Shown one piece after another: positions 1,994-37,071 of a stretch of 64,000 nucleotides of DNA (positions are counted from its first letter, which is position 1; every line of letters begins with the position of its first letter). A program made the translations under genes and the position numbers. The notes beneath the pieces were generated by a model that saw only the letters and a program-made list of their open reading frames with translations, did not search any database and was not told the DNA's origin. The DNA comes from Saccharopolyspora gloriosae (GTDB taxonomy: Bacteria > Actinomycetota > Actinomycetes > Mycobacteriales > Pseudonocardiaceae): contig NZ_CP059557.1 in the NCBI RefSeq assembly GCF_022828475.1, positions 4,015,470-4,079,469 of the forward strand, in the 5' to 3' direction.

Positions 1994-3355
1994 TTACGCG
2001 GCGGATTCCGCATCCGCGCCCTCGATGCTGTGGCGGCGTGGACTGCTCCAGCGACCGCTGGAGCGGGACCACCACGCCAACGGCAGCGAGGACAACGAGA
2101 TCGCCGAGTCCACCACTCGCAGCGGCAGGAACAGCCACGCGTAGAGCAGGAACCGGGGCTGGCGCAGGATGAGCGTCACCACACAGGTCAGCAACAGGTC
2201 CGGCAGCACGATCCCCAGCAGCAGCGCGGGAATCGTCAGATACCCGGACACCGCCTCATAAGTCCCAGCGAACCACGGCACCGTCAGCACGCCCACCGCC
2301 AGCTCCGGTATCAGCAGCACCGACAGCACCACCGGCAGCAGCACCAACATGATGCTGCTGGTCAACAGCTCCAAGAGCAGCAACGTGAGCATCCCGGTGA
2401 ACAGGTTCAGCCGCGGCGGGTGCCTGCGCACCGTTTGCCACAGTCCGAGCGCCCAACGCCGCGACTGGCGCACGTAGTCGCGCAGGGTGCCAGGGTCCTG
2501 AGTGGCCGCGACCGCCGACGGCGTGAAACCGACCTTGCCGAGCCGCTTCTGGTACACCTCGAAGGTCATGTTGAAGTCCTCGATGACGAGTCCCGGCGGG
2601 TTCACCTCGATGTTCGGCAGCACATCGGTGCGGTAGATGCTGGCGAAGCCCGGCACGATGTGCGTCGCGTTGACGTGCCGCCAGGTCTGGCCGAACTTCA
2701 ACAGGTACTGCGTCATCGAGTAGATCCGCTGCCGGTGGAACGCCACCAGCCGGCCGGCGAACGACAGCGAGCGGTCCCGCCACGAGGTGCGCACGCATCC
2801 GGCGACGGCCACCACGTCCGGATCGTCGAACAACGGCAGCGCGGCGCTGAAGTAGCCCGGTTCCACCCGCGTGTCGGCGTCCAGCAGCATCACCAGGCGG
2901 TACCGCCGCACCAGCCGGAACCGGCGGATGCCGACCTGCAGCGCGCCCGCCTTGCCGACGTTCTCATCGGTGCTGATCACGTTCACCCCGGCGCGGCGGG
3001 CGAATTCGACGGTGCGATCGCTGGAGCCGTCGGAGACCACGTGCACCTGCTTGGGCGGGATCAGCGCGGTGATCGCCCGCAGGCTCTCCTTGATGACCAG
3101 TTCCTCGTTGTGCGCGGCGATGAGCACCGCGACGTCGGTGATCTTCAGGTTCGTCGGCCGCCGCAGGCGGTGCCTGCCGGGCAGTTCCTTCTTCTCGCGG
3201 TGCGCCTGCAGATCGGTGACCTTCGCCCGGCGCGGCCGCATTCTGGTCCGCAAGGATCCGTGCCACCCGTCGAGCACCCGCAACAACCCGATCAGACCCC
3301 ACAGCGTGAAGTTCGCCCCGAACACCACGATGGCCAGAACCCACCACGGAATCAT
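1994..3355 (-). CDS. Processive GT2 membrane glycosyltransferase (PgaC/IcaA-like)
   Basis: The protein has 453 residues starting at ATG 3355, with GGGGGAG placed 5 nt upstream. There is an N-terminal membrane helix (WWVLAIVVFGANFTLWG). The GT2 core follows, with VAVLIAAHNEE, SDGSSDRT, the metal-binding LDADTRVEPG, an acceptor motif IEDFNMTFEV and QSRRW, the Q-x-x-R-W signature of processive beta-glycosyltransferases. Three or four C-terminal helices follow. The family polymerises and exports poly-N-acetylglucosamine, cellulose or hyaluronan-like chains, using UDP-sugars on the cytoplasmic side. The nearby NodB-type deacetylase and GH18 hydrolase fit an N-acetylglucosamine-type polymer, which is inference. 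A dispersed repeat separates it from the GH18 gene upstream. Confidence 0.87.
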   Translation of the reverse strand: MIPWWVLAIVVFGANFTLWGLIGLLRVLDGWHGSLRTRMRPRRAKVTDLQAHREKKELPGRHRLRRPTNLKITDVAVLIAAHNEELVIKESLRAITALIPPKQVHVVSDGSSDRTVEFARRAGVNVISTDENVGKAGALQVGIRRFRLVRRYRLVMLLDADTRVEPGYFSAALPLFDDPDVVAVAGCVRTSWRDRSLSFAGRLVAFHRQRIYSMTQYLLKFGQTWRHVNATHIVPGFASIYRTDVLPNIEVNPPGLVIEDFNMTFEVYQKRLGKVGFTPSAVAATQDPGTLRDYVRQSRRWALGLWQTVRRHPPRLNLFTGMLTLLLLELLTSSIMLVLLPVVLSVLLIPELAVGVLTVPWFAGTYEAVSGYLTIPALLLGIVLPDLLLTCVVTLILRQPRFLLYAWLFLPLRVVDSAISLSSLPLAWWSRSSGRWSSPRRHSIEGADAESAA

Positions 3356-3404
3356 GCCCAGCTCCCCCTTGAACGCCCGTGCACAGCGGTTTTTGATCCG
3401 TGTC

Positions 3405-3583
3405 TTGTCAGCGGCGAAGCCGATGAGCAGTGACCACCTGAGCAGCCCGGCCACCGGCGGGTTCTCAGCGGCCTTCTCGCGAGGACAGCGATTTCGTGGT
3501 GTAGGGAGCTACATGAGAAATCGATCCCGCAGCGAGGAGGCCGCTGAGGTTCCGCTACCCGACCCGCTACGCAGAACATTCCG
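3405..3583 (+). repeat. Dispersed hairpin repeat, copy A
   Basis: This is a copy of the element also found at 14359-14529 (plus) and 36794-36972 (minus). A 17-bp stem pairs 3464-3480 (CTCAGCGGCCTTCTCGC) with 3532-3548 and has one G-T wobble. Inside it a second hairpin pairs CGATTTC (3489-3495) with GAAATCG (3517-3523), then TGTAG with CTACA around a GGAG loop. It fills the gap between the GH18 gene (upstream) and the GT2 gene (downstream) on the minus strand. It shows no terminator-type T-run. Confidence 0.8.
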
Positions 3584-3592
3584 GAGACCCCT

Positions 3593-4876
3593 TCATTCGC
3601 TCACCGGAAGGCTTTCGGCCAGGCGGTTCCAGGTGGAGGTGTCCTCGTAGCCGTACATCCACAGGTAGACGCCGCGGATTCCGGAACCGCGGGCCACTTC
3701 GAACTTCGCCTTGGAGCTGACGGAGTTCTCGAACCACACCTCGTGTTCGCGGCCGCGCTCGTCGGTGTAGCGGAACCAGGGGGTCTGGCTCACCGGGTCG
3801 TAGTGCGTCTCCGCGCGGTGCTGGGTGGCGAGCTGGAACGCCTGCAACCAGGTGAGGTTGGTGCCGTGCTCGCCCACCCAGTCGTAGCCGTAGAGCGGGA
3901 TGCCCAGCACGATGCGTTCCGGCGGGATCTTCGACTTGGCGTACTGCACGACATCGCGCACCCACGCGATCGGCGCGACCGGCCCGGGCGGCGAGGTTCC
4001 CCAGTGGAAGTCGTAACCCATCAGCCGCACCTGGTCGGCTGCCCGGCCGATCGCGACGAAGTCCTGCGCCACGTTGCGCTCGTCGTAGCCGACGTCGCTG
4101 GCCTTGGCGAACACCGCGACCGACAGGGTTTTGCCTTCCGCGTGCAGCTTGGCGCCCAGTTCGGTGACGAACGCGCTGAACACCTCCCGATCCCCGGAGC
4201 GCAGGTTCTCGTAGTCGATGTCGATGCCCTCATAGTCCTCCCGTTCGACGAGGTCGACGATCTCCCGCACGTGCCGGTCCCGCAGCCGTGGATCGTGCAG
4301 CACTTTCGCGACCGGTTCGTAAGCCCAGCGGCCGTCGGTGATGTTGGCCAGCGAGGCCACCACCGGCACCCCGGCGTCGCGCAACTTGCCGACCTGCTCG
4401 GTCACCTCGGCGGCCCGCTCCGGCGGGAACTGGTGGGTGATGCGTCCGTCGTCGCCGAGCCCGTAGATCCACGGTGAGACCTCGTTCACCGAGTCCCGGT
4501 TGGCGACCACGGTGGCCGTCCCGTTGTCGAGGTTCCAGAACGGCAGCGAGGCGACCACGAGCGTTCCGGGCTTCGACGGCGACATCATGCGCGGGGCGGC
4601 CATCACGACCACCAGCAGCGCGGCGATCGCGATGAGCGCGACGAACCAGATCGATCCGCCGAAGTGGCGGACCCGGCGCGCACGGGGGCTCCGCGCGCGA
4701 TCCAGCGCCCTTGGCTGCTGCGCCGGTTCCGGTGCTTGTGCCCCGGTTCCGTTCCGCGACCGCCACCACGTCGCGATTCGCTTGCCGATCCCGCCGCCCG
4801 CTGATCCGTCCGCAGCGGAGCCCGGACGTGTGGCCACTTCATCTCGCTCGCCCTCCCGCACCCCGTCGTCGTGCAT
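3593..4876 (-). CDS. Membrane-anchored GH18-type glycoside hydrolase
   Basis: The protein has 427 residues. A basic, low-complexity cytoplasmic N-terminus (1-74) is followed by one transmembrane anchor at about 75-95 (SIWFVALIAIAALLVVVMA). The extracytoplasmic (beta/alpha)8 domain carries the catalytic GH18 motif DYEGIDIDYENL near residues 214-225, which matches DxxDxDxE with Glu as acid/base. It resembles the YaaH/SleL group of spore-cortex and peptidoglycan N-acetylglucosaminidases and chitinase-like proteins. It probably trims or releases an N-acetylhexosamine polymer made by the neighbouring GT2. The gene follows the epimerase by 10 nt in the same operon. Its stop lies just beyond repeat copy A. 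Confidence 0.85.
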   Translation of the reverse strand: MHDDGVREGERDEVATRPGSAADGSAGGGIGKRIATWWRSRNGTGAQAPEPAQQPRALDRARSPRARRVRHFGGSIWFVALIAIAALLVVVMAAPRMMSPSKPGTLVVASLPFWNLDNGTATVVANRDSVNEVSPWIYGLGDDGRITHQFPPERAAEVTEQVGKLRDAGVPVVASLANITDGRWAYEPVAKVLHDPRLRDRHVREIVDLVEREDYEGIDIDYENLRSGDREVFSAFVTELGAKLHAEGKTLSVAVFAKASDVGYDERNVAQDFVAIGRAADQVRLMGYDFHWGTSPPGPVAPIAWVRDVVQYAKSKIPPERIVLGIPLYGYDWVGEHGTNLTWLQAFQLATQHRAETHYDPVSQTPWFRYTDERGREHEVWFENSVSSKAKFEVARGSGIRGVYLWMYGYEDTSTWNRLAESLPVSE

Positions 4877-4886
4877 GTCTCCCCCG

Positions 4887-5861
4887 CTATGCCGACACGA
4901 CCTGTGCGGCGCGCGTCTGCTCGTCGATGACGGCGCGGATGATGTCGTCGAGCGTGCGGGTGGGCTGGAAACCGATCAGCGCCCGCGCCTTCCCGCAGTC
5001 CGGAACCCGTCGCTGCAGGTCTTCGTAGCCCGGCCCGTATGCGTCCTCATAGGACATCTTCACGACGCCGGCGTTGGATCCGGTCAGTTCCATCACCTTC
5101 GTCGCCAGTTCCATGATGGACACTTGCTCGGTGCTGCCGAGGTTGATCGCGGTCCCGTTCGCCTCGGGCAGATCCATCAGCCGCACCAGCGCCGGCACCA
5201 CGTCCAGCACGTGGCAGAAGCAGCGGACCTGGTGCCCGGTGCCGAACACGGTCAGCGGCCGGTTGTTGAGCGCCTGGCTCACCAGCCGCGGAATGACCAT
5301 GCCGTAGCGCCCGCTCTGCCGGGGTCCGACCGTGTTGAACAGCCGCACGATCGTCGCGTTCAACCCGAGTTCCCGGACGTAGGAGCAGGTCAGGCTTTCG
5401 TCGATCGCCTTGGCCTCGGAGTAGGTCCAGCGGGTCTTGAGCGGCGAGCCGATCAGCCGGTCGTCGGTCTCGGACAGGCCCGGCTTGGTGTTCTTGCCGT
5501 AGATCTCGCTGGTGGAGGCCACCAGCACGCGGACCCCGTTGCGGTGCGCCGAATCGAGCACGTTCTCGGTGCCGTGCACGTTGGTGAGCAGGCTGCGCAG
5601 GGTGCGTTCCTGGATGACGAACGCACCCACGGCCGCCGCCAGGTGGAACACCACGTCCACTTCGGACACCAGATCGTCGATGAGGGAACCGTCCAGGATG
5701 GTGCCCTGCACGAAGCGGAAAGCCGGTGCGTTCTCCGGCAGGTTCGCCTTGCTGCCGGTGCTCAAATCGTCCACGCCCACCACGGTGTGCCCCTCGGCGA
5801 GCAGCCATTCGACCAGGTGCGATCCGATGAACCCGGCCGCTCCGGTGACCAATGCCCTCAT
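4887..5861 (-). CDS. NAD-dependent sugar epimerase/dehydratase
   Basis: An extended short-chain dehydrogenase of 324 residues: NAD-binding GAAGFIGSH at the N-terminus, STSEIYGK, and the catalytic pair in YSEAK. The segments NTVGPRQSGRYGMVIPRLV and GSTEQVSIMELA are typical of UDP-glucose/UDP-glucuronate epimerases and decarboxylases. It should interconvert a nucleotide sugar for the polysaccharide; with the UDP-sugar dehydrogenase in the same locus, a uronic-acid substrate is plausible. The ATG at 5861 overlaps the TGA of the GT4 gene (ATGA). Confidence 0.88.
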   Translation of the reverse strand: MRALVTGAAGFIGSHLVEWLLAEGHTVVGVDDLSTGSKANLPENAPAFRFVQGTILDGSLIDDLVSEVDVVFHLAAAVGAFVIQERTLRSLLTNVHGTENVLDSAHRNGVRVLVASTSEIYGKNTKPGLSETDDRLIGSPLKTRWTYSEAKAIDESLTCSYVRELGLNATIVRLFNTVGPRQSGRYGMVIPRLVSQALNNRPLTVFGTGHQVRCFCHVLDVVPALVRLMDLPEANGTAINLGSTEQVSIMELATKVMELTGSNAGVVKMSYEDAYGPGYEDLQRRVPDCGKARALIGFQPTRTLDDIIRAVIDEQTRAAQVVSA

Positions 5862-7012
5862 CGCACGCCTCCGCCCTGTTCCGCGGCCAGCGGCCGGTTC
5901 GCCCCGCGCCGGGCGTTCGCCCCGCGCCTGGTGTTCGAGTGCAACCGTTCGTAGAGATCGTCGATGCGACCGGTGACCGCTTCGATGCCGTAGAGGTCCC
6001 GGATCACCGGAACATCGCCGCGCGGGCGCCGGTCGGTGACCTCGGCGGTGATCTCCTTGCGCATGCCGTCCACGTCGCCCGGAACCTGCCGGGCGCGATC
6101 GGTCCGGACGCCTTCCAGCGCCGGGCACGTCGTGTAGAGCACCGGCATCCCGTTGGCCAGCGCCTCCAGCACGGACAACCCGAACGTCTCCTGCGCCGAG
6201 GACGCCACGAACAGGTCGAACGCGGAGAGCATCGCGGACACGTCGTGGCGTTCACCGGCGAACACCACGTGCTCGGCCACGCCGAGCTCCGCGGCGAGCG
6301 CCTCCAGCCGTTCCCGTTCGGCGCCGCCGCCGACGATGAGCAGTTTCGCGCCCTCGCCCAGCAGCGGGGCCGCGGCCTCGATCACCATGTCGAAGCGCTT
6401 GTTCGCGTCCAGCCTGCCCAGCACGCCGATCACGTGAGCTCGTTCGTCGATGCCGTGCTCGGCCCGGACCCGCGCGCGGGCGGCCGAGTCGAAGCTGACG
6501 CGGCCGAAGTCGACGCCGTTCGGGATGACGCTGATCTTGTCCGCGCGCATCCCCCACTGGGCGAGCCGCCCGGCGACCGTCTCCGACACCGCGATGGTGC
6601 GTTGCGCGAACACGTCGGTGCCGAGGTAGAGCCCGCGGACTCCGGCGGTCATCCGCCTGCGCTCCAGGTGCGTCTCCCCGATCGAGTGCTCGGTGCCGAC
6701 CACCACCGGCGTACCGGCGAGCCGGGCGGCGAGCTTTCCGTAGACGCACGCCCGGTAGAGGTGGGTGTGCACCACGTCGTAGCCGCCCTCGCGGATCAGC
6801 GCCCGCATGCGCAGCACCGCGCCGACCTGCGTGTTGCTGGTCATGCCCAGATCGCGGACCCGAACACCGTCACCGGTGATCATGTCCGCGACGTCACCCG
6901 GGTTGTAGAGCGCGAGCACCTCCGAATCGTGCCGGGTGTGCTGCAGGATCGAGCGCAGCTGCAGCTCGGCGCCACCGACCGCCAGACCGGTGATCACGTG
7001 CAGAACCTTCAT
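5858..7012 (-). CDS. GT4-family glycosyltransferase
   Basis: A complete GT-B transferase of 384 residues. It has the N-terminal glycine loop GLAVGGAELQLRS, DVVHTHLYRACVYGK, an IPNGVD linker motif, GVLGRLDANKRFD, and the E-x7-E signature ETFGLSVLEAL. The C-terminus ends in an arginine-rich tail with the direct repeat RRGANARRGAN. The start ATG 7012 has GGGGAGGA upstream. Its start lies within the 3' end of the sugar-transferase ORF as read (see that entry). It probably extends the lipid-linked intermediate begun by that sugar transferase. Confidence 0.88.
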   Translation of the reverse strand: MKVLHVITGLAVGGAELQLRSILQHTRHDSEVLALYNPGDVADMITGDGVRVRDLGMTSNTQVGAVLRMRALIREGGYDVVHTHLYRACVYGKLAARLAGTPVVVGTEHSIGETHLERRRMTAGVRGLYLGTDVFAQRTIAVSETVAGRLAQWGMRADKISVIPNGVDFGRVSFDSAARARVRAEHGIDERAHVIGVLGRLDANKRFDMVIEAAAPLLGEGAKLLIVGGGAERERLEALAAELGVAEHVVFAGERHDVSAMLSAFDLFVASSAQETFGLSVLEALANGMPVLYTTCPALEGVRTDRARQVPGDVDGMRKEITAEVTDRRPRGDVPVIRDLYGIEAVTGRIDDLYERLHSNTRRGANARRGANRPLAAEQGGGVR

Positions 7013-8336
7013 TCCTGTCCTCCCCCATCGCGGTGGCCAGCACGATGCCGACCGTCCTGGCCACGACCACCACGTCCAGCCACGGCGTCCAGTTCTCGAT
7101 GTAGCGGTTGTCGAAATCGGCCCGCTCCGGGATCGAGGTGTCCCCGTGCAGGCCGTGCACCTGCGCCCAGCCCGTCATGCCGCCCCGCACCCGGTGCCGG
7201 TCGCGGTAGCGCGGGATCTCGCGGGCGAATCGTTCGGCGTAGCAGGGCCGTTCCGGTCTCGGCCCCACCACGGACATCTCGCCGCGCAGCACGTTGCTCA
7301 GCTGCGGCAGCTCGTCGAAGTGCGTTCCGCGCAGCCAACGGCTCAGCCCGGTCGTATCCGCGGCGGGCACCGACCAGCCCTGTTCGGTGCCGCCCGGGAT
7401 CGTGCGCAGCTTGACGACCGTCGCCGACCGGCCGGCTCCGGTGACCCGGCGCTGCCGGAACAGCGCCGCCCCACCACCGCCGAGGCGCACGGCCGCGGCC
7501 AGCGCCAGCAACAGCGGTGCCAGCACGACCAGCAGCGCACCGGCCAGCACCACGTCGAAGATCCGCTTCGCGCGCACCGCCGCACCGGTGTGCGCCCAGC
7601 GGCGCAGCGGCACCAGCGGAACCCCCCAGATCTCGTCCAGGAAGCGCTGCGGCACCGCCACGCCCAGCTCCGGCAGACCCGGCACCAGGTAGACGTCGGC
7701 GGGCAGCGGACGACAGGCGCGCACGATCGACACCAGGTCCGCGTCGGTGTCCCCGGCGCAGAGGATCACGCGGGTGACGCGGTGCCGGGCCACCAGCTCG
7801 CCCAGCCGGTGCGGGCGGCCCAGCACCGGCGTCCCGTCCGCGGCCGGTCCGTCGGCGAGGAATGCCGGTCGCAGACCGAACTCCGGGTGTTCCCGCAGCG
7901 CGCGGGAGATCCGCACGCCGACCGAACCGGCTCCCACGATCAGCACCTGTTCGACCAGCAGCCCCCGGCGGTGCGCGGCGCGCAGTCCCGCGTTCCCCGC
8001 GCCGCGGGCGAGCACCAGCGCACTCGCCCCCGCCGGGACCAGCCACCCGTCACCCGTCCACGGCACCAGCAGCGCGGCGGGCACCGCGGCGGCGAGCACC
8101 AACCGCGGAACCTGATCTCCGACGCGCAGGCAGACCCGGAGGCGATGCCCGCCGCCCGCGGCCAGCACTCCCAGCACCGCCACCACGTACAGCGCGCCGG
8201 GCAGTCCCGGCGTGCCCACCGCGAGCGCGGCCACGGTCACCGTGACCGCGTCGACCACCGGCCACAGCACCACCGGCAGCAGCCGTGGCGCCCCGCGCAC
8301 CCCGGTTCGCACCGGGCAACGCAGCGCGCACGGCAC
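6894..8336 (-). CDS. Polyprenyl-phosphate sugar transferase (WbaP/EpsE-type); ends distorted by probable missing bases
   Basis: As read, 480 residues. It has an N-terminal set of membrane helices (about 20-100), a CoA-binding-like NAD fold (VEQVLIVGAGSVGVRISRAL), then a membrane helix and the bacterial sugar-transferase domain with RIFDVVLAGALL, HFDELPQLSNVL, SVVGPRPE and WAQVHG. The family moves a sugar-1-phosphate onto undecaprenyl phosphate, the first step of exopolysaccharide assembly. Both ends look wrong. The last 118 bases run into the GT4 gene, and the GTG start leaves unused an ATG at 8371 that would overlap the preceding stop as ATGA. One extra C in the CCCC run near 8338 and one extra G in the GGGGG run near 7023 would give an N-terminus MSIADLRSGPAP... 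and an end ...AMGGGQE with the usual ATGA overlap. Confidence 0.82.
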   Translation of the reverse strand: MPCALRCPVRTGVRGAPRLLPVVLWPVVDAVTVTVAALAVGTPGLPGALYVVAVLGVLAAGGGHRLRVCLRVGDQVPRLVLAAAVPAALLVPWTGDGWLVPAGASALVLARGAGNAGLRAAHRRGLLVEQVLIVGAGSVGVRISRALREHPEFGLRPAFLADGPAADGTPVLGRPHRLGELVARHRVTRVILCAGDTDADLVSIVRACRPLPADVYLVPGLPELGVAVPQRFLDEIWGVPLVPLRRWAHTGAAVRAKRIFDVVLAGALLVVLAPLLLALAAAVRLGGGGAALFRQRRVTGAGRSATVVKLRTIPGGTEQGWSVPAADTTGLSRWLRGTHFDELPQLSNVLRGEMSVVGPRPERPCYAERFAREIPRYRDRHRVRGGMTGWAQVHGLHGDTSIPERADFDNRYIENWTPWLDVVVVARTVGIVLATAMGEDRNEGSARDHRSGGRWRRAAAALDPAAHPARFGGARALQPG

Positions 8337-8367
8337 GGGGCCGGGCCGGACCGCAGGTCGGCGATGC

Positions 8368-9597
8368 TCATCCGGCGGCCCCGGCGGGAACCTTGCTACT
8401 CGCGTCCGAAGAGGACAGTCGCGCCGAGACCCGCCGCACCGCGTGGTCCGCGCCGTAGACGAACCGCATCACCGGCCCGTGGCTCGGGGCCACCGAGGCG
8501 CCGACGAAGTACAGCCCCGGCACCGAGGATTCGAAGTGCGCGTCCACCCGAGGAGTCCGCGCCAACGTGCGCAACCGGGACCGCAGCCGCGGGTTCACGA
8601 ACGCGAGCCGCTCCAGATCCGGCGGATAGCCGGTCGCGCACACCACGTGGTCGGCGGCGAACTCGCGACCGCCGCCGCCGAACGTGCGCACTCCGAGCTT
8701 GACCTGCTCACCGACCGTCTTCGCCCAGTCCACCGTGTGCCCGACGTGCACCGGGAAAACGCCCTCGACCCGGCTGCGCAGCCACCACGCGCCCGCCGGG
8801 CCGAGCGCCGTGCGCGCCCGGAACACCCGCTGGCTCTCGGGAAGGTGCCGGAACAGGTCGGGGTGCTCGGAGTAGAACCAGGTGGAGAGGCCCGAACCGA
8901 GCCCGGCCTCCGGTTCCCGCATCCGCCGCAGCAACGGCCGGTCCGGCAACAACGGCCTGCCGTTCCACGCCACGTCCCTGGCGCGCGCGATCAGCCGCAC
9001 CGACGCCCCGTTCTCGTGCAACAGCGCGGCCGATTCCAGCGCGGACTGCCCGGCTCCGATCACCAGTACCTCGGCGCCGTCGAACTTGGCCAGGTCGGTG
9101 TGCTCCGAGCTGTGCGTGCACAGTTCGGGAGGCAGGTCGGCGAACACCTCCGGAGTGCGGGAGAAGTGCTGCACCCCGGCGGCCACCACCACCGAGCGGG
9201 CTTTCGCGCTGCCGCCGTCGGCGAGTTCCAGCTCGAACACGCCCGCCCGCCGGTCCAGGTCGGTCACCAGCACCTGCTCGACTTCGAGCCCGCGTTGTTC
9301 GCGGAACCACTCGGCGTAGGCCGTGAAGTTCTCCAGGGACACCGGAACGCCGTAGTCGGCGTAGCCGCGGCCGGTCTCCTGGCAGAAGTTCCGCAAGGTG
9401 TGCGAGCGGTCCGGGTCGGACAGGTTCGAGGCGAACCCCTGCGACTTCAGGAACATCCCGCGTGGCATCTTGCTGCGCCACAAGTCCATCGGAATGCCGA
9501 AGTGCCGATAGCTCACGCCGCCTGCCCGCAGGTGTGCAGCCAGCGACAGCCCATACGGACCGGCGCCCACGATGGCGACGTCGACGGTGTCGTTCAT
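8368..9597 (-). CDS. FAD/NAD(P)-binding oxidoreductase, N-hydroxylase/flavin-monooxygenase-like
   Basis: The protein has 409 residues. It shows an FAD loop VAIVGAGPYGLSLAAHL, a second dinucleotide loop VLVIGAGQSALESAALL and the late motif VVCATGYPPDLE. This matches the architecture of lysine/ornithine N-monooxygenases and related FAD oxidoreductases. No substrate can be read. The start ATG 9597 shares a base with the upstream stop (TGATG) and has GGAGGGG 5 nt before it, so it is tightly coupled to the ATP-grasp gene. That pairing within a polysaccharide locus suggests modification of an amino-acid or amine decoration, which is inference. Confidence 0.8.
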   Translation of the reverse strand: MNDTVDVAIVGAGPYGLSLAAHLRAGGVSYRHFGIPMDLWRSKMPRGMFLKSQGFASNLSDPDRSHTLRNFCQETGRGYADYGVPVSLENFTAYAEWFREQRGLEVEQVLVTDLDRRAGVFELELADGGSAKARSVVVAAGVQHFSRTPEVFADLPPELCTHSSEHTDLAKFDGAEVLVIGAGQSALESAALLHENGASVRLIARARDVAWNGRPLLPDRPLLRRMREPEAGLGSGLSTWFYSEHPDLFRHLPESQRVFRARTALGPAGAWWLRSRVEGVFPVHVGHTVDWAKTVGEQVKLGVRTFGGGGREFAADHVVCATGYPPDLERLAFVNPRLRSRLRTLARTPRVDAHFESSVPGLYFVGASVAPSHGPVMRFVYGADHAVRRVSARLSSSDASSKVPAGAAG

Positions 9598-10934
9598 CAG
9601 TGCCCCTCCTTGACCGCATACGGCGACCGTCGCCGCTGCCGAATCCTCGTGTTCGCGTCCCGCTCCGCCCGTGCGCGGAAACGCGGCGGTTCCACCACCT
9701 GCACGCTGGGGCGCGGCGCGAATCGCCGGGTGATCGCCCGTCTTCCCATCCAGCCGCACATCAGCGCGAACGGCGCGAGGTCGTCACGGGCGAACCACGC
9801 CAGCTCGTCCACTCCCCACAGCGAACGCGCCCACCTGCCGAGCCCCAGATCTCCGCGCCGCCAATAGCCGAGCGCGCCGATGGGGTCGTAGTTCTCCACC
9901 AGGAATCGGCGCCCCACGGGCGGAATCCCCTCCGGAACCGGCTGCCCCGTCAGGTCCAGGTAGGCCGCGAGGACCACGTCGATGCCCGCGGAGTCCCGGA
10001 ACAACCGGAATTGCGCGCCCAGTCGCGGGTTGAAGTCCAGCAGCCGGTAGCTGCCGTCGCGCCGGTCGAAGCGGAAATCCAGGTCCGCGATGCCGCGAAA
10101 GTCCAAGCGCCGCAACAACTCCACGGCCTGCGCGCGCAGCACCGTGTTCGACGCGCACCGGCCCAGCGTGGTGAGCCCGGCGTGCGCCGGGTACGAGCGC
10201 AGCTTCACCCCGGTGAACGCCGGCCGGCATCCGGCGGAACCCCGGTAGGCGTGGAAGAACCAGTCGTTGCCGCTGCCGCCGGGGATGTACTCCTGCAGCA
10301 TCAGCATGCCCGCGTCCTGCTGTTCACAGACTTCGGCGATCTCCAGCAGTTCCGGGCGGGAGCGCAGGATCGAGGTGCTGCGCACCTTCGCCCGGCCACC
10401 GGACGTCCACGGCGTCGCGAGCTTCGCCACCAGCGGGAAACCGGCCTCCGCCGCGAATTCGTCCGCCTCCGCCCTGGTGCGCACGAGTTCCGCGCGCGGC
10501 GTCGGCACGTTCAGATCCCGGCACACGTCCTGCAAGGTGAACTTCCCGGCGACTTCCCGAGGCAGCTGCGGCGACGGGTCGGGGAAGCGGAACCAGTGCC
10601 GCAGCGCCGCACCGTGCTCGGCGAGGTGGATCGCGGCGGCGTCGTCGGTGGGGAACAGCACCGCGGGCCTGCCCAGCTTCTCCGCCAGCGCCGCCAGTCC
10701 CAGGTTGATCCGCTCCGGATCTCCCGGTTCCGGGCGCCACCACCAGCGCCCGTGCAGGTAACGGGAATGCGCCGCGGGCGCCATCGGATCTTCGTGCACC
10801 GCGTACACCGGCACCCCGGCGCGGCCCAGGCTGCGGATCAGCCCGAGCCCGCCGTGGTGCAGCACGTTCGGGTCCAGCTTGAAGACGACCGCGGGCGTGG
10901 CGGTGTCGATGCCGTCCGGTTCCGGAGCGCGCAT
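9597..10934 (-). CDS. ATP-grasp carboxylate-amine ligase-like protein
   Basis: The protein has 445 residues. An N-terminal pre-ATP-grasp region (VVFKLDPNVLHHGGLG) is followed by an ATP-grasp core: GFPLVAKLATPWTSGG, a LMLQEYIPGGSGNDW segment, and the magnesium-binding RLLDFNPRLGAQFRLF. ATP-grasp ligases activate a carboxylate as acyl phosphate and join it to an amine or thiol. In this locus it may join an amino acid to a uronic acid or other carboxylated sugar. It starts 8 nt after the UDP-sugar dehydrogenase gene. The C-terminal 60 residues are very basic. Confidence 0.8.
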   Translation of the reverse strand: MRAPEPDGIDTATPAVVFKLDPNVLHHGGLGLIRSLGRAGVPVYAVHEDPMAPAAHSRYLHGRWWWRPEPGDPERINLGLAALAEKLGRPAVLFPTDDAAAIHLAEHGAALRHWFRFPDPSPQLPREVAGKFTLQDVCRDLNVPTPRAELVRTRAEADEFAAEAGFPLVAKLATPWTSGGRAKVRSTSILRSRPELLEIAEVCEQQDAGMLMLQEYIPGGSGNDWFFHAYRGSAGCRPAFTGVKLRSYPAHAGLTTLGRCASNTVLRAQAVELLRRLDFRGIADLDFRFDRRDGSYRLLDFNPRLGAQFRLFRDSAGIDVVLAAYLDLTGQPVPEGIPPVGRRFLVENYDPIGALGYWRRGDLGLGRWARSLWGVDELAWFARDDLAPFALMCGWMGRRAITRRFAPRPSVQVVEPPRFRARAERDANTRIRQRRRSPYAVKEGH

Positions 10935-10941
10935 GCCCGCC

Positions 10942-12336
10942 TCACACGACCTGCCGGTGCGGCGCCAGATCGAACTGGTACGTCGCGTCCAGCACCTGCG
11001 GGCAGTCCCCGGCCCACGAGTAGTCGAATCCCGGATGCACGGTGTGCACAACGACCAGGTCCCAGTCGGCGCCGCGCGGTTCCGGTTCCCCGGACAGCCG
11101 GGAGCCGTCGGGCAGCTCGATCTCCCCGAGCAGCGGATCGTGGTAGCGCACGTCCGCGCCGAGCCGGGTCAGTCCGCTGATGATCGGTAGTGCCGGGGAC
11201 TCCCGCAGGTCCCGCACGCCCGCCTTGTAGCTCACGCCCGCCAGCAACACCCGCGCCCCGGACGCGGCCGTTCCGGCGGCGGCCAGCATCTCCTCGGCAC
11301 GGCGCACCACCTGCTCCGGGCGCAGGTCGATGGACCGCATGGCCTGGTCGATCACCGGCGCCGTCACGCCCATCTTCCGCAGCTGCCACAGCAGGTAGTG
11401 CGGATCGCAGGGGATGCAGTGCCCGCCGACTCCCGGTCCCGGGAAGCTGCCGAGGAACCCGTAGGGCTTGGTGCCCGCCGCGATGGTCACTTCGATCGGG
11501 TCCAGCGACAGCGTGCCGCAGATGTCGGCGATCTCGTTGGCCAGTGCCAGGTTCACCGCGCGGAAGATGTTCTCGTAGAGCTTCGTCAGCTCCGCCGCCT
11601 CCGGCGAACCCACCAGGAACACCGAGTCGGTGAGGTCGCCGATCACCCGCGCCGCCCGCGCCGAGCACTCCGGCGTGACGCCGCCGACGATGCGCGGGGT
11701 GTCGCGCTGCGCGTGGTCGTGGTTGCCGGGGTCGATGCGTTCCGGGCTGAACGCCACGTGCACCTCGGTTCCGACCTCCAAGCCCCGGCGCCGCAACGGT
11801 TCCACCAGCAGCTCTCGCGTGGTCCCGACGAACGTGGTGGAGGTCAGGATGATCGTCTGGCCGGGCCGGGCGTGGGCCACCGCCGTCGCGCACGCGCCGC
11901 GCAGCGCGGCGAGATCCGGCGTCCGGTCCTCGTCGACGGGAGTGGGCACGCAGACGACGACGGTGTCCGCCTCGGCCAGCGCCGAGGGATCCTCCGACAG
12001 CCGCAGCGAAACGTCGGCCAGCGCGTCGTGCAGCACCGCGCGTTCCGCTCCGGGCAGGTCCACGTCTCCGTCCGCCACGGCCCGCAGCCGCGCCTCGCTG
12101 ATGTCGACGCCGACGACGCTGGAGCGGCGCGCGGCCAGCCCGCACGCGGTCGGCAGGCCCACGTATCCGAGTCCGAGGATCACGACCGTTCCCTGCCTGG
12201 CCTTCGGAACGTGGGTTTCCAGGCCGGCGGCGCGGCGCACCGCGTCCTCCTCCGACCGGTCCTGGTAGGCGACCAGCCGGCCGGACAGTTGTCCTTCCCG
12301 GCCGTTGACCGCCAGCGCAAGGTGATGCTGGGTCAC
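10942..12336 (-). CDS. UDP-sugar 6-dehydrogenase (UDP-glucose/UDP-ManNAc dehydrogenase family)
   Basis: The protein has 464 residues. The NAD loop is VVILGLGYVGLPTACGL, with VCVPTPVDE, the central helix region EAAELTKLYENIFRAVN, and the active-site Cys in GPGVGGHCIPCDP. The C-terminal domain includes GVSYKAGVRDLRESP. It oxidises the C6 alcohol of a UDP-sugar to a uronic acid with 2 NAD+. An N-terminal extension of about 48 residues before the Rossmann fold is unusual. GTG 12336 is preceded by GGGGGAGGAAAC, a strong ribosome site, so the extension is supported. It is probably the first gene of the minus-strand operon running down to 3593 or beyond; the 184 bp upstream would hold its promoter, but no clear boxes were found. 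Confidence 0.9.
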   Translation of the reverse strand: MTQHHLALAVNGREGQLSGRLVAYQDRSEEDAVRRAAGLETHVPKARQGTVVILGLGYVGLPTACGLAARRSSVVGVDISEARLRAVADGDVDLPGAERAVLHDALADVSLRLSEDPSALAEADTVVVCVPTPVDEDRTPDLAALRGACATAVAHARPGQTIILTSTTFVGTTRELLVEPLRRRGLEVGTEVHVAFSPERIDPGNHDHAQRDTPRIVGGVTPECSARAARVIGDLTDSVFLVGSPEAAELTKLYENIFRAVNLALANEIADICGTLSLDPIEVTIAAGTKPYGFLGSFPGPGVGGHCIPCDPHYLLWQLRKMGVTAPVIDQAMRSIDLRPEQVVRRAEEMLAAAGTAASGARVLLAGVSYKAGVRDLRESPALPIISGLTRLGADVRYHDPLLGEIELPDGSRLSGEPEPRGADWDLVVVHTVHPGFDYSWAGDCPQVLDATYQFDLAPHRQVV

Positions 12337-12520
12337 GTTTCCTCCCCCGGTTACGCGTGTCCCGTGCGGCGGGCGGTCGAAGCGCCCGCTCGTTCCCGGT
12401 GTCTCAAGTGGTCGCGGCCCCCACCGCGTGCCGCCTGACCGGTGTCGCCGTTGTTCGTCCGCGGGCTTCAGCCTCGCAGCTCAGCGGGGTCGGCCCGCTC
12501 CCCCAACGGCGGTAGCGGCC

Positions 12521-13300
12521 CTACCGAAACCGCAGGAATCTCGGTGCGGGGATCTCCGCGGCGCGCGTGGCCCTGAGCCCGTGGCGGACCCGTTTCGCGT
12601 CTAGCCGCAGGGTCCCGTCCCGATCACCGACGTAGGTGCGCGGCAACGCGTGCGTCCCCGAGAGTTCGGAACGCCAAATGGCGCAGCCGTAGTCGTATCC
12701 GGCCTCCCGCACCGCGCTCACCACGGCCGCGTCCACCCCGCCGTACGGGTAGCAGAACCCGTTCACCGGCTGCCCGGACAACGCCTGCAGCATCGGGCGG
12801 CTCTTGCCGACCTCGGCGGCGAGCTCAGCCTGGTCCAGGGTGGTCAACCGGCGGTGCAGCACGCTGTGCGAACCGATCTCCATGCCGCCCGCCGCGACGC
12901 GGGCGACCTCGTCCTCGGTCATCAGCGGTTTGCGCGGCCCCGCCGGGTCCCACGCGTTGTGCCCGCCCATCATCCCGGAGATCACGAAGACCGTCGCCGT
13001 CCAGCCGTAGCGGCGCAGCAGCGGGAAGACGGTGTCGGCGAAGTCGGTGTAGGCGTCGTCGAAGGTCAACCCGACCAGTCCGCGCCCCCGCCCGGCCCGG
13101 CGGGCGGCCAGCAGCTCCCGCATCGACACCCCGGTGCATCCGCGCGCCCGCAGCCAGCGCAGCTGCCGCTCGAACCGGGCGGGCTCCACCGTCACCAAGT
13201 ACGGGTCTTCGGTGTACTCGGACACCGAGTGGTACATCAGCACGTACGGGAACGACTGCGGCACCCGCTGCCGGGAGGACTGCTGCGCTGTCCGGGTCAT
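12521..13300 (-). CDS. Polysaccharide deacetylase (NodB domain, CE4)
   Basis: The protein has 259 residues. CE4 motifs are in order: VLMYHSVSE, the metal and catalytic motif GLTFDDAYTD, the H-x3-H metal pair in SHSVLHRRL, and CYPYGG. There is no signal peptide or membrane segment, so either it is cytoplasmic or it leaves by another route. It should remove acetyl groups from an N-acetylhexosamine polymer and pairs logically with the PgaC-like GT2 at 1994. It stands alone, 184 bp upstream of the dehydrogenase operon. Upstream, 231 bp separate it from the divergent PAP2 gene. Confidence 0.88.
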   Translation of the reverse strand: MTRTAQQSSRQRVPQSFPYVLMYHSVSEYTEDPYLVTVEPARFERQLRWLRARGCTGVSMRELLAARRAGRGRGLVGLTFDDAYTDFADTVFPLLRRYGWTATVFVISGMMGGHNAWDPAGPRKPLMTEDEVARVAAGGMEIGSHSVLHRRLTTLDQAELAAEVGKSRPMLQALSGQPVNGFCYPYGGVDAAVVSAVREAGYDYGCAIWRSELSGTHALPRTYVGDRDGTLRLDAKRVRHGLRATRAAEIPAPRFLRFR

Positions 13301-13448
13301 CGCGGCCCGCCCTTCTGGTCACGTCCTCGGCGGACCGTCGCACGGGCGGGTGCCGGGCGGACCGGTCGCGCGGGTGAGTTCGAGTAACCCGGATGCACGA
13401 GACGGGCGCGTGCGCGCCGACCCGGCAGGGGCGCCCCGGACGGGCCTA

Positions 13449-13498
13449 GGTGATCAACTGCCCGTTTCGGGGCGATCGGTAGGATCGGGCAGATCACC
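13449..13498 (+). promoter_or_regulatory. Promoter-like TAGGAT inside an inverted repeat
   Basis: GGTGATC (13449-13455) and CTGCCCG (13458-13464) pair with CGGGCAG (13486-13492) and ATCACC (13493-13498). A -10-like TAGGAT (13480-13485) lies between the arms, about 45 nt before the PAP2 start. It could be an operator over the PAP2 promoter; no -35 box is clear. Confidence 0.35.
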
Positions 13499-13531
13499 GA
13501 CCGGACCGGAAGATCGCCGAGGAGTTGACAC

Positions 13532-14325
13532 GTGGCCGCGGCCTCCCGTCAAGAACCAGCACATCAGGACGGTTCCGCCGACGCGGCCGCGAACACCGGC
13601 TCAGCACCCCCGCAGGCCGGGATCCGGGATCTGATCTCCGCCTACCCGTGGCTGCCGGTCGTGCTGGGCCTGCTGCTGAGCGCCGTGGGGGTGTGGTGCT
13701 TCACCGAGCTCACCGAGCAGGTGTACCAGGGCGGGCCGGTGCTCCGCGTCGACGAGCACCTGCTGCGGGTGTCGCTGGAGCTGCGTTCCGGGCCGCTGGT
13801 GGGGCGTTGGCGGTGCTCACCTGGCTCGGCGACGTGCTGGTGGTGCTGCCGGTGAGCATCGCGATCGGCGTGCTGATCGGATTCACCCGCCACCGGTGGT
13901 CGCCGTTGCTGCTGCTGGCGCTGGGTTCGGCGGGCACGGGTCTCGCGGTGTACCTGATCAAGATCATGATCGCCCGGCCGCGACCGCTGGTGGTGAACGC
14001 GATCGTCGTCGAGGACGGTTTCGGTTTCCCTTCCGGGCATTCCGCGCAGGCGGCCGCGCTGTACCTGATGCTCGGCGCGTTCGCGCTGCGCCTGCTGCGC
14101 ACCCGGTGGGTCCGCAACGCCCTGTTCGCCGCAGCGGTGCTCGCGATGGTCGTCACCGGCGTCAGCCGGGTGATGCTCGGCGTGCACTCCCCCACCGACG
14201 TCGTCGCCGGCTGGACGCTCGGCGCGTCCTGGACGGTACTGCTGCTCAGCCTCTGGCTGTTCGCCGAACACCTACCCCGCCTGATCAACTCCCTGGTAGC
14301 CCGCAAACAGCGAACCACGAAGTGA
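13532..14325 (+). pseudogene. PAP2-family membrane phosphatase, frame broken by one missing G
   Basis: The N-terminal half (from GTG 13532: AAASRQEPAHQDG..., one membrane helix PWLPVVLGLLLSAVGVW) and the C-terminal half are in different frames. The switch falls at the GGGG run 13801-13804; adding one G restores ...SGPLVGALAVLTWLGDVLVV. The second half has all PAP2 phosphatase motifs: KIMIARPRP, PSGHS and SRVMLGVHSPTD, plus five or so helices. Family members dephosphorylate lipid phosphates such as undecaprenyl pyrophosphate outside the membrane. The rebuilt protein is about 264 residues, normal for the family, and every motif is intact, so a sequencing error is likelier than true loss. Confidence 0.8.
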
Positions 14326-14358
14326 TCACCAGCCGAGAGTGATCTCGTGGCCGGGATC

Positions 14359-14529
14359 TTGTCAGCGGCGAGGCCGCTGAGCAGCGACCAGCCAGAGCAA
14401 CCGGCACCGCGGCGGGTTCTCAGGTGCTTCCTCGCGAGGACGGCTTTTTCCCTCGTGGCGGAGCCACTTGGGAAAATGATTTCGCAGCGAGGAAGCACCT
14501 GAGGTTCCGCCACCCGACCACCTACGCAG
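14359..14529 (+). repeat. Dispersed hairpin repeat, copy B
   Basis: This is the best-preserved copy. A perfect 17-bp stem pairs CTCAGGTGCTTCCTCGC (14419-14435) with 14487-14503. The inner hairpin pairs TTTTCCC (14446-14452) with GGGAAAA (14470-14476), and GTGGC with GCCAC around a GGA loop. Compared with copy A, three base pairs in the long stem are changed on both strands so that pairing is kept. It lies between the convergent PAP2 and korB genes. Confidence 0.82.
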
Positions 14530-14542
14530 CCGGTACCGGGCC

Positions 14543-15606
14543 TCAAATGGTCCAGGTGTCGTTGCCGTTGAGCAGGTTCTGGAGGTCGGGCGGGTTGCTC
14601 TCCCTCGCCACCGCGGTCTGCTCCCGGGCGGCGTCGTCGTAGGTCGGCCGGGACACCGAGCGGAACACCCCGGTCACCGTCGGATCCAGGTTCACCCCGC
14701 CCAGCCTGGACAGCGCGTAGGCGAACGAGCTGTCCGCGCGTTCCGCGTCGTGCACGACCACGTCGTCGGAGTCCACCTCCGCCAGCGGCGCCACCCGGAG
14801 CTCACCGGCCGCGTCGCGCACCACCGCGTACTGCTCGTCCTCCGGGCCGAACACGATGGGCTTGCCGTGGCGCAGCGGGATCATGCGGCGCTGCTTCTCG
14901 TCCTTGTCCTTGAGCACGTCGAACGCGCCGTCGTTGAAGATCGGGCAGTTCTGGTAGATCTCCACCAGCGCGCTGCCCCGGTGTTCCGCCGCGGCCTGCA
15001 AGGTCTCCGTGACGTGCGCCCGGTCCGAGTCCAGCGTGCGCGCCACGAAGCTCGCCTCCGCGCCCAGCGCCAGCGACACCGGGTTGAACGGGGTGTCCAG
15101 CGAACCCGCGGGCGTCGACTTGGTGACCTTGCCGACCTCCGAGGTCGGCGAGTACTGCCCCTTCGTCAACCCGTAGATCCGGTTGTTGAACAGCAGGATC
15201 TTCAGGTTCACGTTGCGCCGCAACGCGTGGATCAGGTGGTTGCCGCCGATGGACAGCGCGTCCCCGTCCCGGTGACCACCCACACCGACAGGTCCGGTCG
15301 CTGCGTGGCCAGTCCCGTCGCGATCGCCGGAGCACGTCCGTGGATCGAGTGCATCCCGTAGGTGTTCATGTAGTACGGGAACCGGCTGGAGCAGCCGATG
15401 CCCGAGATGAACACGATGTTCTCCCGCTTGAGCCCCAGCGTCGGCAGGAAGCTCTGCACCGCGTTGAGGACGATGTAGTCCCCGCAACCGGGACACCAAC
15501 GCACTTCCTGGTCGGACTTGTAGTCCTTCGCGGTCTGCTTCTCGTCGCTGGTGGGCACGCCGTGCAGGCCGCCCACCTCCGGCAGTCCGAGGTCCGTGGT
15601 CGTCAC
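14543..15606 (-). pseudogene. korB: 2-oxoglutarate:ferredoxin oxidoreductase beta subunit, frame broken by one missing base
   Basis: From GTG 15606 the frame reads [53 protein letters not shown] and VWVVTG. It then leaves frame at the CCC run 15268-15270 (plus strand). With one base added it continues [20 protein letters not shown] (the ThDP-binding GDGD-A motif), NNRIYGLTKGQYSPTS, to a stop at 14543. The rebuilt 354 residues match KorB. KorAB converts 2-oxoglutarate plus CoA to succinyl-CoA with reduced ferredoxin. Its GTG overlaps the korA stop (GTGA). Central metabolism and intact motifs on both sides favour a sequence error. Confidence 0.85.
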
Positions 15607-17570
15607 GCCGACACTCCTTGCACCACATCGGTGAGCACGTTCTGGAGTTCTTCCGCTTGGAACGGGAGACCCGCGACCTTGGTGTGGCTGTGCACGTCCA
15701 CCAGGTAGCGGGACCGCAGCAGCATCGCGAGCTGGCCGAGGTTCATCTCCGGCACGATCACCTTGTCGTAACGCCGCAGCACCTCCTCGAGATTCCCGGG
15801 CATCGGGTTCAAGTACCGCAGATGAGCCTGCGCGATCGGCACGCCCAGGCCGCGCACCCGGCGGCAGGCGGCGCCGATCGGGCCGTAGGACGAACCCCAG
15901 CCCAGCACCAGCGCCTCGGCCTGCCCGGACGGATCGTCCACCTCGAGATCGGGCACCTCGACCCCGTCGATCTTCGCCTGGCGCAGCCGGACCATCTTGT
16001 CGTGGTTGTCCGGGTCGTAGGAGATGGCGCCGGAGCCGTCGGCCTTCTCCAACCCGCCGATGCGGTGCTCGGTGCCCGCGTTGCCCGGCACCGCCCACTC
16101 GCGGGCCAGCGTCTCCGGGTCCCGCACGTACGGCCAGAACTCACCGGAGCCGTCCGGCGCGTTCGGTTCGGTCGCGAAGGTCACCCGCAGGTCCGGCAGG
16201 TCGGTGATGTCCGGGATCAGCCACGGCTCGGAGCCGTTGGCGATGGCCCCGTCGGACAGCAGCAGCACCGGCGTGCGGTAGCGCAGCGCGATCCGCGCCG
16301 CCTCCAGCGCCACCTCGAAGCAGTCCGCCGGCGACTGCGGCGCGAGCACCGGCACGGGGGACTCGCCGTTGCGGCCGTAGAGCGCCTGCAACAGGTCGGC
16401 CTGCTCGGTCTTGGTGGGCAACCCGGTCGACGGGCCGCCGCGCTGGATGTCGCAGATCAGCAGCGGCAGCTCCAGGGTCACCGCCAGCCCGATGGTCTCC
16501 GACTTCAGCGCCAGTCCCGGTCCGGAGGTCGTGGTCACTCCCAGCGAGCCGCCGAACGAGGCGCCCAGCGCCGCGCCGACTCCCGCGATCTCGTCCTCGG
16601 CCTGGAAGGTCGTGACGCCGAAGTTCTTGTGCTTGGCCAGCTCGTGCAGCACGTCGGAAGCCGGGGTGATCGGATAGGTGCCCAGGAACATGGGCAGTCC
16701 GCTGCGCTGCCCGGCGGCGACCAGGCCGTAGGCGAGCGCCACGTTGCCGGTGATCTGGCGGTAGGTCCCCTTCGGCAGCGTCGCGGGCGCGACCTCGTAG
16801 GTCACCGCGAACGCCTCGGTCGTCTCGCCGTAGTTCCAGCCCGCGCGGAACGCGAGCACGTTGGCCTCGGCGATGTCGGGCTTCTTCGCGAACTTCTCCC
16901 GCAGGAACCGTTCGGTGCCCTCGGTCGGCCGGTGGTACATCCAGGACAGCAGCCCGAGCGCGAACATGTTCTTCGCGCGTTCGGCGTCCTTGCGCCCGAC
17001 CCCGGCGGGTTCCGCGGCGCCGCGGGTCAGCTCGGCCATCGCGACGTGGTGCACCACGTACGGTTCGAGCTCCCCGGAATCGAGCGGGTTGTGCTCGTAC
17101 CCGACCTTGGTGAGGTTGCGCTTGGTGAACTCGTCGGTGTTGACGATCAGGGTGCCGCCGTGCGGCAGGTCGCCGAGGTTCGACTTCAGCGCCGCCGGGT
17201 TCATGGCCACCAGAACGTCCGGCCGGTCACCCGGGGTGAGGATGTCGTAGTCGGCGAAGTGCAGCTGGAAGCTGGACACGCCCGGCAGCGTCCCGGCGGG
17301 AGCCCGGATCTCGGCCGGGAAGTTCGGCAGCGTCGCGAGGTCGTTGCCGAAGGCCGCGGCCTCCGAGGTGAATCGGTCGCCGGTCAGCTGCATGCCGTCG
17401 CCGGAGTCTCCGGCGAAGCGGATCACCACGCGGTTGAGCTTGCGCGGGCTCGTGCCCTGGCCGTTCGGGGTGTCGTCGTTCGTGCGCTGGGAGTTCGTGG
17501 AGTCGTTGGCGTCCGGCCCGCTCGCGCCGGTTCCCGTCCGCTCCGGAGGCTGGTGCCCGTTCGTAGTCAC
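15603..17570 (-). CDS. korA: 2-oxoglutarate:ferredoxin oxidoreductase alpha subunit (fused gamma-alpha)
   Basis: The protein has 655 residues. The N-terminal gamma-type domain carries [20 protein letters not shown] and [20 protein letters not shown]. The alpha domain carries [39 protein letters not shown] and [13 protein letters not shown], and the C-terminal part is [12 protein letters not shown]. This is the actinobacterial KorA architecture. GTG 17570 gives the family-like N-terminus VTTNGHQ but has a weak ribosome site; GTG 17618 is an alternative. About 40 N-terminal residues are polar and low complexity. A TTGAAC - 17 nt - TAAGAA pair about 100 nt upstream could be the promoter. Confidence 0.92.
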
Positions 17571-36745: not shown

Positions 36746-36793
36746 GACGAACAGTCTCTCCCGACGACATTTCGGACACCGATCACGGTCGTT

Positions 36794-36972
36794 TCGGAAT
36801 GACCTGCGTAGTGGGTCCCTCAGCGGAACCTCTACTGCTTCCTCGCTGCGGGATCGATTCCTCATTCACGCCGTACGCAGCGAAAACGCCGTCATCGCGA
36901 GAAAGCCGGTGAGAACCCGCCGGTGGCCGTCCTGTTCAAGCCGGTCACCGCTCAGTGGTTCCGCCGCTGACG
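36794..36972 (-). repeat. Dispersed hairpin repeat, copy C (minus orientation)
   Basis: Read on the minus strand it matches copy A from GTCAGCGGCGG through GGCCACCGGCGGGTTCTC to CTACGCAGGTCATTCCG. The long stem is weaker here (about four mismatches in 15), so the copy is partly decayed. It lies between the LLM oxidoreductase gene and the start of the NCS2 gene, 49 bp before its ATG. Confidence 0.75.
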
Positions 36973-37071
36973 GGACAACGACCCGGCTGCACCAGAGCCG
37001 CACACGGATGTCACACGACGGTGTGCCATGGCCCGGTCACTCGTTGGAGCGGACCCGGGGTCGGATCATCA

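Follow-up and report, generated by a model that had tools for sequence, protein, structure and literature searches.

Palindromic repeats behind stop codons in Saccharopolyspora gloriosae as probable miniature transposons of an IS5-family insertion sequence

Background

Several described systems invite comparison with the elements reported here, a set of dispersed, hairpin-forming repeats of which four copies (A to D) lie in a 64,000-nucleotide stretch of the Saccharopolyspora gloriosae chromosome (the window, positions 4,015,470-4,079,469 of the closed 6.88-Mb genome, labelled G000). The stems of repetitive extragenic palindromes (REP) carry compensated changes. ERIC/YPAL elements are intergenic palindromes of 100-170 bp found in enterobacteria and are thought to be miniature inverted-repeat transposable elements (MITEs), and the attC sites of integrons are structure-conserved hairpins located just past a stop codon. 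Within the IS5 family of insertion sequences (IS), the group to which the present elements are likened is named here after IS427 and, as we presume, IS1031. The IS427-group elements shown in PMC3281130 measure 0.83-0.87 kb and produce duplications of 2-4 bp, and IS5 itself duplicates a Py-T-A-Pu target, mostly CTAG but also CTAA and TTAG, according to the part of PMC5493358 concerned with its target. Mycobacterial interspersed repetitive units (MIRUs), in the portion of PMC12548453 that bears on their insertion, enter at start codons with a -4 nt coupling.

No paper on the repeats of S. gloriosae, or on MITEs in Saccharopolyspora, was found in the literature searched. A first-pass annotation of the window had described them as a dispersed repeat with covarying hairpins and had left their nature open between an RNA element, a REP-like mobile repeat and a signal for mRNA processing. 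The analysis presented below distinguishes two classes. All four window copies belong to class 1, whose members are probably MITEs of a 0.9-kb IS5-family IS: their ends would have been copied from the left and right repeats of this IS, and they would have been moved in trans by a DDE transposase of this type.

Results

The repeat family was explored with a covariance model, R1, built from 34 copies. This model returns at least 150 matches in the genome, the weakest with an E-value of 1.4e-24. Copy number was derived from an even sample of G000 made of 100 regions of 20 kb (2 Mb in total, regions named L followed by a number), in which 176 matches were reduced to 117 distinct copies, weaker matches on the opposite strand being removed by hand; this corresponds to about 402 copies per genome. 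Class 1 accounts for 67 of the 117 copies and class 2 for 46, four being unclassed. The repeats are present in 21 of 80 genomes of the family, representing 12 of 46 genera, and in all five congeners tested, while 80 of the 85 stretches with a pattern match, those listed, belong to Saccharopolyspora, Actinopolyspora and Halopolyspora. Neither outcome that the first-pass annotation had named as a refutation, a lack of additional copies or a lack of stem covariation, was observed.

Class 1 elements are about 220 bp long and non-coding. Read in the direction of copy A, the left terminal repeat is followed by TCAGCGGC-GAA-GCCGMTGA, which forms a small hairpin, and, after a spacer, by GCGG and an unpaired GTT/GTT. 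The 17-bp stem comes next, then a 9/9 inner loop, which is conserved (GAGGACRGC / GATCCCGCA), and the inner hairpin; beyond these lie CTACCCGACC..CTACGCAG and, last, the right terminal repeat. The part running from GCGG to CCGC is common to both classes, and the left side of class 2 is an array of small hairpins. Long left arrays of c(GNA)g hairpins were observed in the class 2 repeats at L157:8550-9027 and G000:5956437-5957268, and at one class 2 locus the matches recur every 126 bp.

The ends of class 1 provide the most direct clue to its origin. Terminal inverted repeats (TIRs) resembling GGGGTCCTTKCRGAATGATC, with at least one end at 13/20 or better, were recognized on 31 of the 55 class 1 copies scored, that is on more than half of them, against 0 of 45 class 2 copies and 1 of at most 110 control windows; this consensus-guided scoring, which left out copies below 90 bits, is partly circular because the consensus was drawn from some of the scored copies, a circularity that affects neither the class 2 and 400-bp controls nor the match with the IS described next. 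Inverted pairs of such repeats separated by less than 4 kb were found 14 times in the G000 sample, the window, the relatives and the named contigs: eight at 206-230 bp, three at 89-100 bp, one at 906 bp, and two at 2.1 and 3.6 kb that are probably due to chance. The 906-bp pair encloses an open reading frame (ORF) for a DDE transposase, whose product matches the IS5-family model NF033580 with 231 bits (cut-off 110) as well as PF13340/PF01609. This IS occupies four places in G000 at 100% protein identity, and the three copies read, at L105:12647-13552 and in L299 and L318, are identical at the DNA level (906/906 bp). Its left end, GGGGTCCTTGCAGAATGATCTTG, matches the left end of the small elements and its right end, GGGGTCCTTTCAGAATGCTG, matches their right end. 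It is because of this side-for-side correspondence that class 1 is interpreted as MITEs.

The flanking sequences were compared over 110 distinct copies (12 having been dropped), relatives and both classes included. TTA is found on both sides of the IS in all three copies read, and TNA lies outside 23 of 63 well-kept repeat ends, compared with 6 of 214 controls.

Other observations concern the immediate surroundings of the IS and of the repeats. Two of the three IS copies read lie inside a repeat (L105, class 2) or at the edge of one (L318), and the fourth copy, G000:1232194-1233015, is found beside a match of class 2 length at 1233207. An IS481-family element (NF033577) is present at L086:1129-2235, L102:13191-14297, L156:6500-7606 and L177:5917-7023, the last three copies being 99.6-99.7% identical to that of L086. 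All four copies of the 2-Mb sample, which occur in both orientations, sit at the same site of the repeat, GGTAGC, with GGTAGC on both sides, and this element seems to use the repeat as a landing site. A search for an autonomous element by means of isolated 5' and 3' modules yielded none and brought up hairpin-less class 1 copies instead. Those with both ends kept are L148:2503-2587, L082:12393-12478, L185:4513-4594, L194:18799-18875 and L111:16890-16964; they are perhaps deletions between direct repeats, GCCGCTGAG. Two of the three TIR pairs at 89-100 bp (L194, L082) read as such copies.

The position of the repeats relative to genes was determined with gene calls produced by a codon-usage script rather than taken from annotation. 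Only 1 of 113 classed copies has its midpoint inside a called gene, and only 1 of the 67 class 1 copies of the 2-Mb sample overlaps a called gene by more than 30 bp. Gaps between divergent genes hold 3 of 64 class 1 and 4 of 44 class 2 copies, against a background of 203 out of 714 gaps of at least 150 bp. For class 1 copies whose 3' end is turned towards the end of a gene, raw distances to the stop codon are between -43 and 37 nt for 48 copies out of 50, the other two being 185 and 270. When a tail of 18 nt is allowed, a length chosen after seeing the data, the stop falls within -15 to +12 nt in 37 of the 50 copies. Expressed as a fraction of the reconstructed gap, the 3' end lies on average at 0.063 (Kolmogorov-Smirnov p 2e-25, n=36), while no such proximity is seen for stops that face the 5' end (mean 0.76, n=18). 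Class 2 is stop-adjacent as well. TAG accounts for 7 of 10 stops at exact junctions, 3 of 32 elsewhere and 108 of 1321 genes of the sample, an excess that a YTAR/TNA target would produce. The corresponding sites of copies A, B and D in the sister genome G001 contain only 9-49 bp. Further empty sites were found, and one empty allele carries a TAG stop at the same place.

A bias in orientation was also apparent. The G+C skew places the replication origin near 0 and the terminus near 3.45 Mb, and with respect to these points 52 of 67 class 1 copies are in lagging orientation (p 6e-6), compared with 20 of 46 in class 2. Called genes are 59% leading, a bias in gene direction that seems too small to explain this result. 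In gaps between convergent genes, which favour neither gene direction, 16 of 21 class 1 and 9 of 20 class 2 copies are lagging, and among the covariance model matches these numbers become 54 of 73 and 32 of 67. The same tendency is seen in G018, a genome of another genus (30/35 lagging), and, with the origin set at base 1, in G072 (14/16) and G017 (6/6) among the matches listed. As for the skew itself, odd local G-C values were noted in L132 (G000:3577200-3597199, -0.173), just past the terminus, and in L081 (G000:78600-98599, 0.114); the rest of the 100 sampled regions stay within 0.065 in size.

The covariation of the stems was evaluated on 72 of the 117 cores (54 distinct rows), chosen by score (at least 110 bits), pattern and length. 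Paired cells amount to 93.0%, versus 84.0% in shuffled and 40-56% in slid alignments, and cells changed on both sides number 170 versus 55 in shuffles, none of 500 shuffles reaching 170. The main stem contains 13 wobble cells and 27 unpaired ones, so that wobble is not favoured. A pattern parse of the stems succeeded for 69 of the 117 copies; 54 variable blocks match perfectly in this set, and six stem haplotypes (blocks) are common to classes 1 and 2. The loops of pattern-found CGGC/GCCG hairpins are of the GNA type in 85 of 89 cases, and all 50 inner loops found by pattern read GGA. The d(GNA) triloop with a C-G closing pair is a stable DNA motif, as reported in the part of PMC5815330 that deals with it.

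Some copies, L026 and L157:741, have one arm rewritten from the other. Together with the haplotypes common to both classes, they indicate that arm-templated repair or exchange between copies can give rise to the same covariation pattern. Sister species point in the same direction, the same gap holding very different yet paired stems, some of them in opposite orientation or of the other class. Among 35 copies examined in relatives, nine were unmapped and 26 were mapped, several of the latter representing one gap shared by two or three species; for 20 of them the same gap is occupied by a copy in G000 too (five times in opposite orientation), and for six it is not. Same-gap copies with differing stems may go back to old insertions that exchange has rewritten, or else to repeated insertion.

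The initial attribution of the covariation to selection on structure is thus maintained in part. The stem does covary, and strongly so against shuffles; on the other hand, wobbles are not favoured over mismatches, haplotypes are common to both classes, and arms have been rewritten. Chances are evenly divided as to whether the covariation, taken by itself, is mainly mutational, arising when one arm serves as template for the repair of the other (quasi-palindrome repair) and when whole hairpins pass between copies, without selection on structure, a cause that would be compatible with a MITE origin of class 1. The perfect variable blocks, the haplotypes common to both classes, the rewritten arms and the different, paired stems in the same gaps of sister species plead for it; against it, free conversion between arms would erase the GTT/GTT, which is unpaired, and the inner loops of 9 nt, yet both are conserved in most of the 72 copies.

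The four copies of the window, all of them real, can now be described in window coordinates. Model R1 matches copy A at 3403-3574 (+) with 191 bits, copy B at 14357-14529 (+) with 194 bits and copy C at 36804-36975 (-) with 136 bits, scores that are partly due to construction since all three are among the 34 building sequences. Copy D is not matched by R1 at E≤1, and its identification rests on an alignment with copy A over nearly the full length, which scores 100 against a mean of 36.5 (standard deviation 5.8, maximum 67) in 500 shuffles.

The stretch 3355-3587 (+), which contains copy A, has no counterpart in G001, where 9 bp are found; the element itself extends from about 3371 to 3591. Compared with the IS end, its left terminal repeat, GAACGCCCGTGCACAGCGGTTTTTGATC (3371-3398, +), is strongly diverged. 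It is followed on the plus strand by the small hairpin with its GAA loop, TCAGCGGC-GAA-GCCGATGA (3408-3426), the 5' arm of the 17-bp main stem (3464-3480), the inner hairpin CGATTTC...GAAATCG (3489-3523) and the 3' arm, also of 17 bp (3532-3548). The right terminal repeat, GGGGTCTCCGGAATG on the minus strand (3577-3591), stands 1 base from the TGA stop at 3593-3595. AAGGGG direct repeats around copy A were considered as a 6-bp duplication and rejected, one side being part of the terminal repeat and the other a Shine-Dalgarno run. Copy B (14313-14541, +) replaces 48 bp of G001 between the stops of the convergent genes 13525-14325 (+) and 14543-15628 (-), with its main stem arms at 14419-14435 and 14487-14503 (+) and its inner hairpin, TTTTTCCC...GGGAAAA, at 14445-14476 (+). 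The core of copy C (36804-36975, -) is partly decayed, and its right terminal repeat goes on at 36787-36803, reading GGTCGTTTCGGAATGAC on the plus strand. Copy D (1849-2021, +) is a decayed class 1 element of 173 bp, versus 49 bp in G001.

Between copies A and B, the 17-bp stem shows the compensated changes announced by the first-pass annotation (C-G to G-C, G-C to T-A and C-G to T-A, with in addition a T-G wobble becoming C-G), and the inner hairpin changes as described from CGATTTC/GAAATCG to TTTTCCC/GGGAAAA. The intergenic location claimed for all copies holds for B and C according to the gene calls. It depends, for copy A, on the start of a glycosyltransferase gene: A is intergenic if this gene starts at the ATG near 3354, and the gene caller and the ORF list propose instead the GTG at 3454, inside A. 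It fails for copy D, which overlaps the final 28 bp of this same glycosyltransferase gene. Copies A and C, for their part, lie between co-directed genes.

Discussion

The properties of class 1 can be combined in a simple scheme. The target would be YTAR/TNA-like, in keeping with the TTA found on both sides of the IS. Such sites would be scarce in a genome of 70% G+C, yet each TGA and each TAA would provide one, as would YTAG stops. Duplication of the target would leave the stop intact (TGA followed by GGGG, or TTA joined to G, giving TAG), and selection would consequently retain the insertions located at the 3' ends of genes and eliminate the rest. The lagging bias would fit an insertion tied to the replication fork, and a similar orientation preference is known for IS903. 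The interior would be palindromic DNA with loops of the c(GNA)g type, and its arms could stay complementary through hairpin exchange and arm-templated repair, possibly with the help of selection for the fold. Class 1 was most likely moved by the transposase identified here or by a lost relative of it, and the present copies are probably mostly passive.

Several observations weigh against this scheme. Class 2, with 46 of the 117 copies, has the same hairpin and the same stop adjacency without these TIRs or the orientation bias, so the MITE scheme leaves part of the family unexplained. A target duplication does not show on the old copies: of 26 that retain both ends, only 2 have the same triplet on either side (mean after shuffling 0.89, P 0.22). 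The TIRs of copy A are strongly diverged and those of copy B barely recognizable, and an unguided local alignment of end against end gave class 1 scores of 6.84 for the same element and 6.88 for other elements, with a control at 6.55; the inverted repeat emerged only from consensus-guided scans with controls. In the repeat-rich congeners G002-G005 nothing matches the IS at E≤1e-30, and the mover there is lost or different. In G005, 19 of 24 of the matches listed are lagging at a fitted origin, which is not significant (permutation p 0.052). Finally, IS5-type matches do not track the repeats, being found in 12 of 21 repeat-bearing genomes and 7 of 17 others. In this and the other domain searches, the 21 repeat-bearing genomes comprise 18 of the 21 of the family survey plus G001-G003, with G054, G073 and G087 (one match each) excluded, and the 17 comparison genomes are without survey match, although at the DNA level G009 and G012 each gave a single weak hit (E about 5e-4).

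Of the alternatives, a structured RNA survives best, although it is unlikely. The repeats would then be 3' untranslated region elements (terminator, stabilizer or processing site) maintained because their RNA fold is under selection, as would suit the strong fold and its covariation, the location just past stop codons and the rarity of class 1 in divergent gaps (3/64 vs 203/714). However, copies occur in both orientations relative to genes, those of class 1 between tandem genes being antisense in 29 cases and sense in 11. A fold kept as RNA agrees poorly with the 13 wobbles against 27 mismatches in the main stem, and with the c(GNA)g loops that 85 of the 89 pattern-found small hairpins possess, a type described as stable in DNA in the relevant part of PMC5815330. 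By eye, no T-run directly follows the class 1 stem on either strand. Over the window, no Rfam family reaches its cut-off, copy B giving only a chance-level hit to mir-763 (E 0.68). Moreover, the TIRs and their IS partner offer a reason for the position that is based on mobility. The suggested role in RNA processing or read-through consequently finds no direct support, copy B being located between convergent genes.

A different proposal, somewhat less probable again, is that the 100-bp hairpin forms a module independent of the element ends, which elements exchange in single-stranded, folded form at the replication fork, class 1 being only one of its vehicles. It is suggested by the occurrence of the hairpin in two classes with unrelated ends, and would have both stem arms rewritten together, even at orthologous sites. 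If this were true, the conservation of the unpaired loops would point to a hairpin-handling protein.

That the repeats form a REP/BIME family moved by a Y1 HUH transposase (RAYT) acting on lagging-strand DNA is very improbable. High copy number, intergenic location and lagging bias would agree with it, as might the GTAG or GTGG seen at the foot of the palindrome in the minus reading, where REP hairpins have GTAG or GGAG. Nevertheless, PF01797 has no match in G000 and does not track the repeats across the 38 genomes searched, being found in 6 of the 21 that bear repeats and in 1 of the 17 others, and the TIRs of class 1 are common with the IS5-family IS; barring a RAYT too distant for PF01797, the REP-like membership considered at first was therefore mistaken, even if the idea of a dispersed mobile repeat with a conserved fold was right, as further copies, empty sites and covariation attest. 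Movement of the hairpins as RNA by a reverse transcriptase is the least credible of all: the position and strand bias of the repeats recall group II intron-type movement, which favours the lagging strand and gene 3' ends, but PF00078 has no match in G000 and does not track the repeats either, with matches in 5 of 21 repeat-bearing genomes against 9 of 17 others.

A MITE origin of class 1 would have consequences beyond this genome. A covarying repeat that looks like RNA can be the relic of a DNA transposon, which calls for caution in covariance-based RNA discovery when high-copy repeats are concerned. Target choice combined with a duplicated stop would give a simple reason for mini-transposons piling up behind stop codons. 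In addition, the repeats would represent a natural case, in at least three genera, of replication-strand choice by IS5-type transposases.

Comparison with known systems

The attC sites of integrons differ from the present repeats, which are dispersed and have TIRs; no core boxes (RYYYAAC, GTTRRRY) were noticed by eye, no scan having been made. The MIRUs of mycobacteria are likewise mobile repeats of actinobacteria, inserting at the borders of genes and doing these little harm, according to the part of PMC12548453 devoted to these properties. They carry an ORF and land at start codons, whereas the present elements have no ORF, a palindrome, TIRs and a landing place at stop codons. The likeness to ERIC/YPAL is one of general form, and here the ends and a partner IS were found. 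REP and BIME elements with their RAYT are also high-copy intergenic palindromes at gene 3' ends; the difference lies in the lack of a Y1 transposase match in this genome, the IS5-family TIRs and the size of about 220 bp. The closest resemblance is to the MITEs of the IS5 family (IS427/IS1031-like), which are likewise short, non-coding and present in high copy number, with ends matching those of a DDE-transposase IS of the same genome and, probably, the same short AT-type target (TTA/YTAR). From these, the repeats of S. gloriosae are distinguished by a 100-bp covarying palindrome common with a second class, by their landing at stop codons and by their strong lagging bias.

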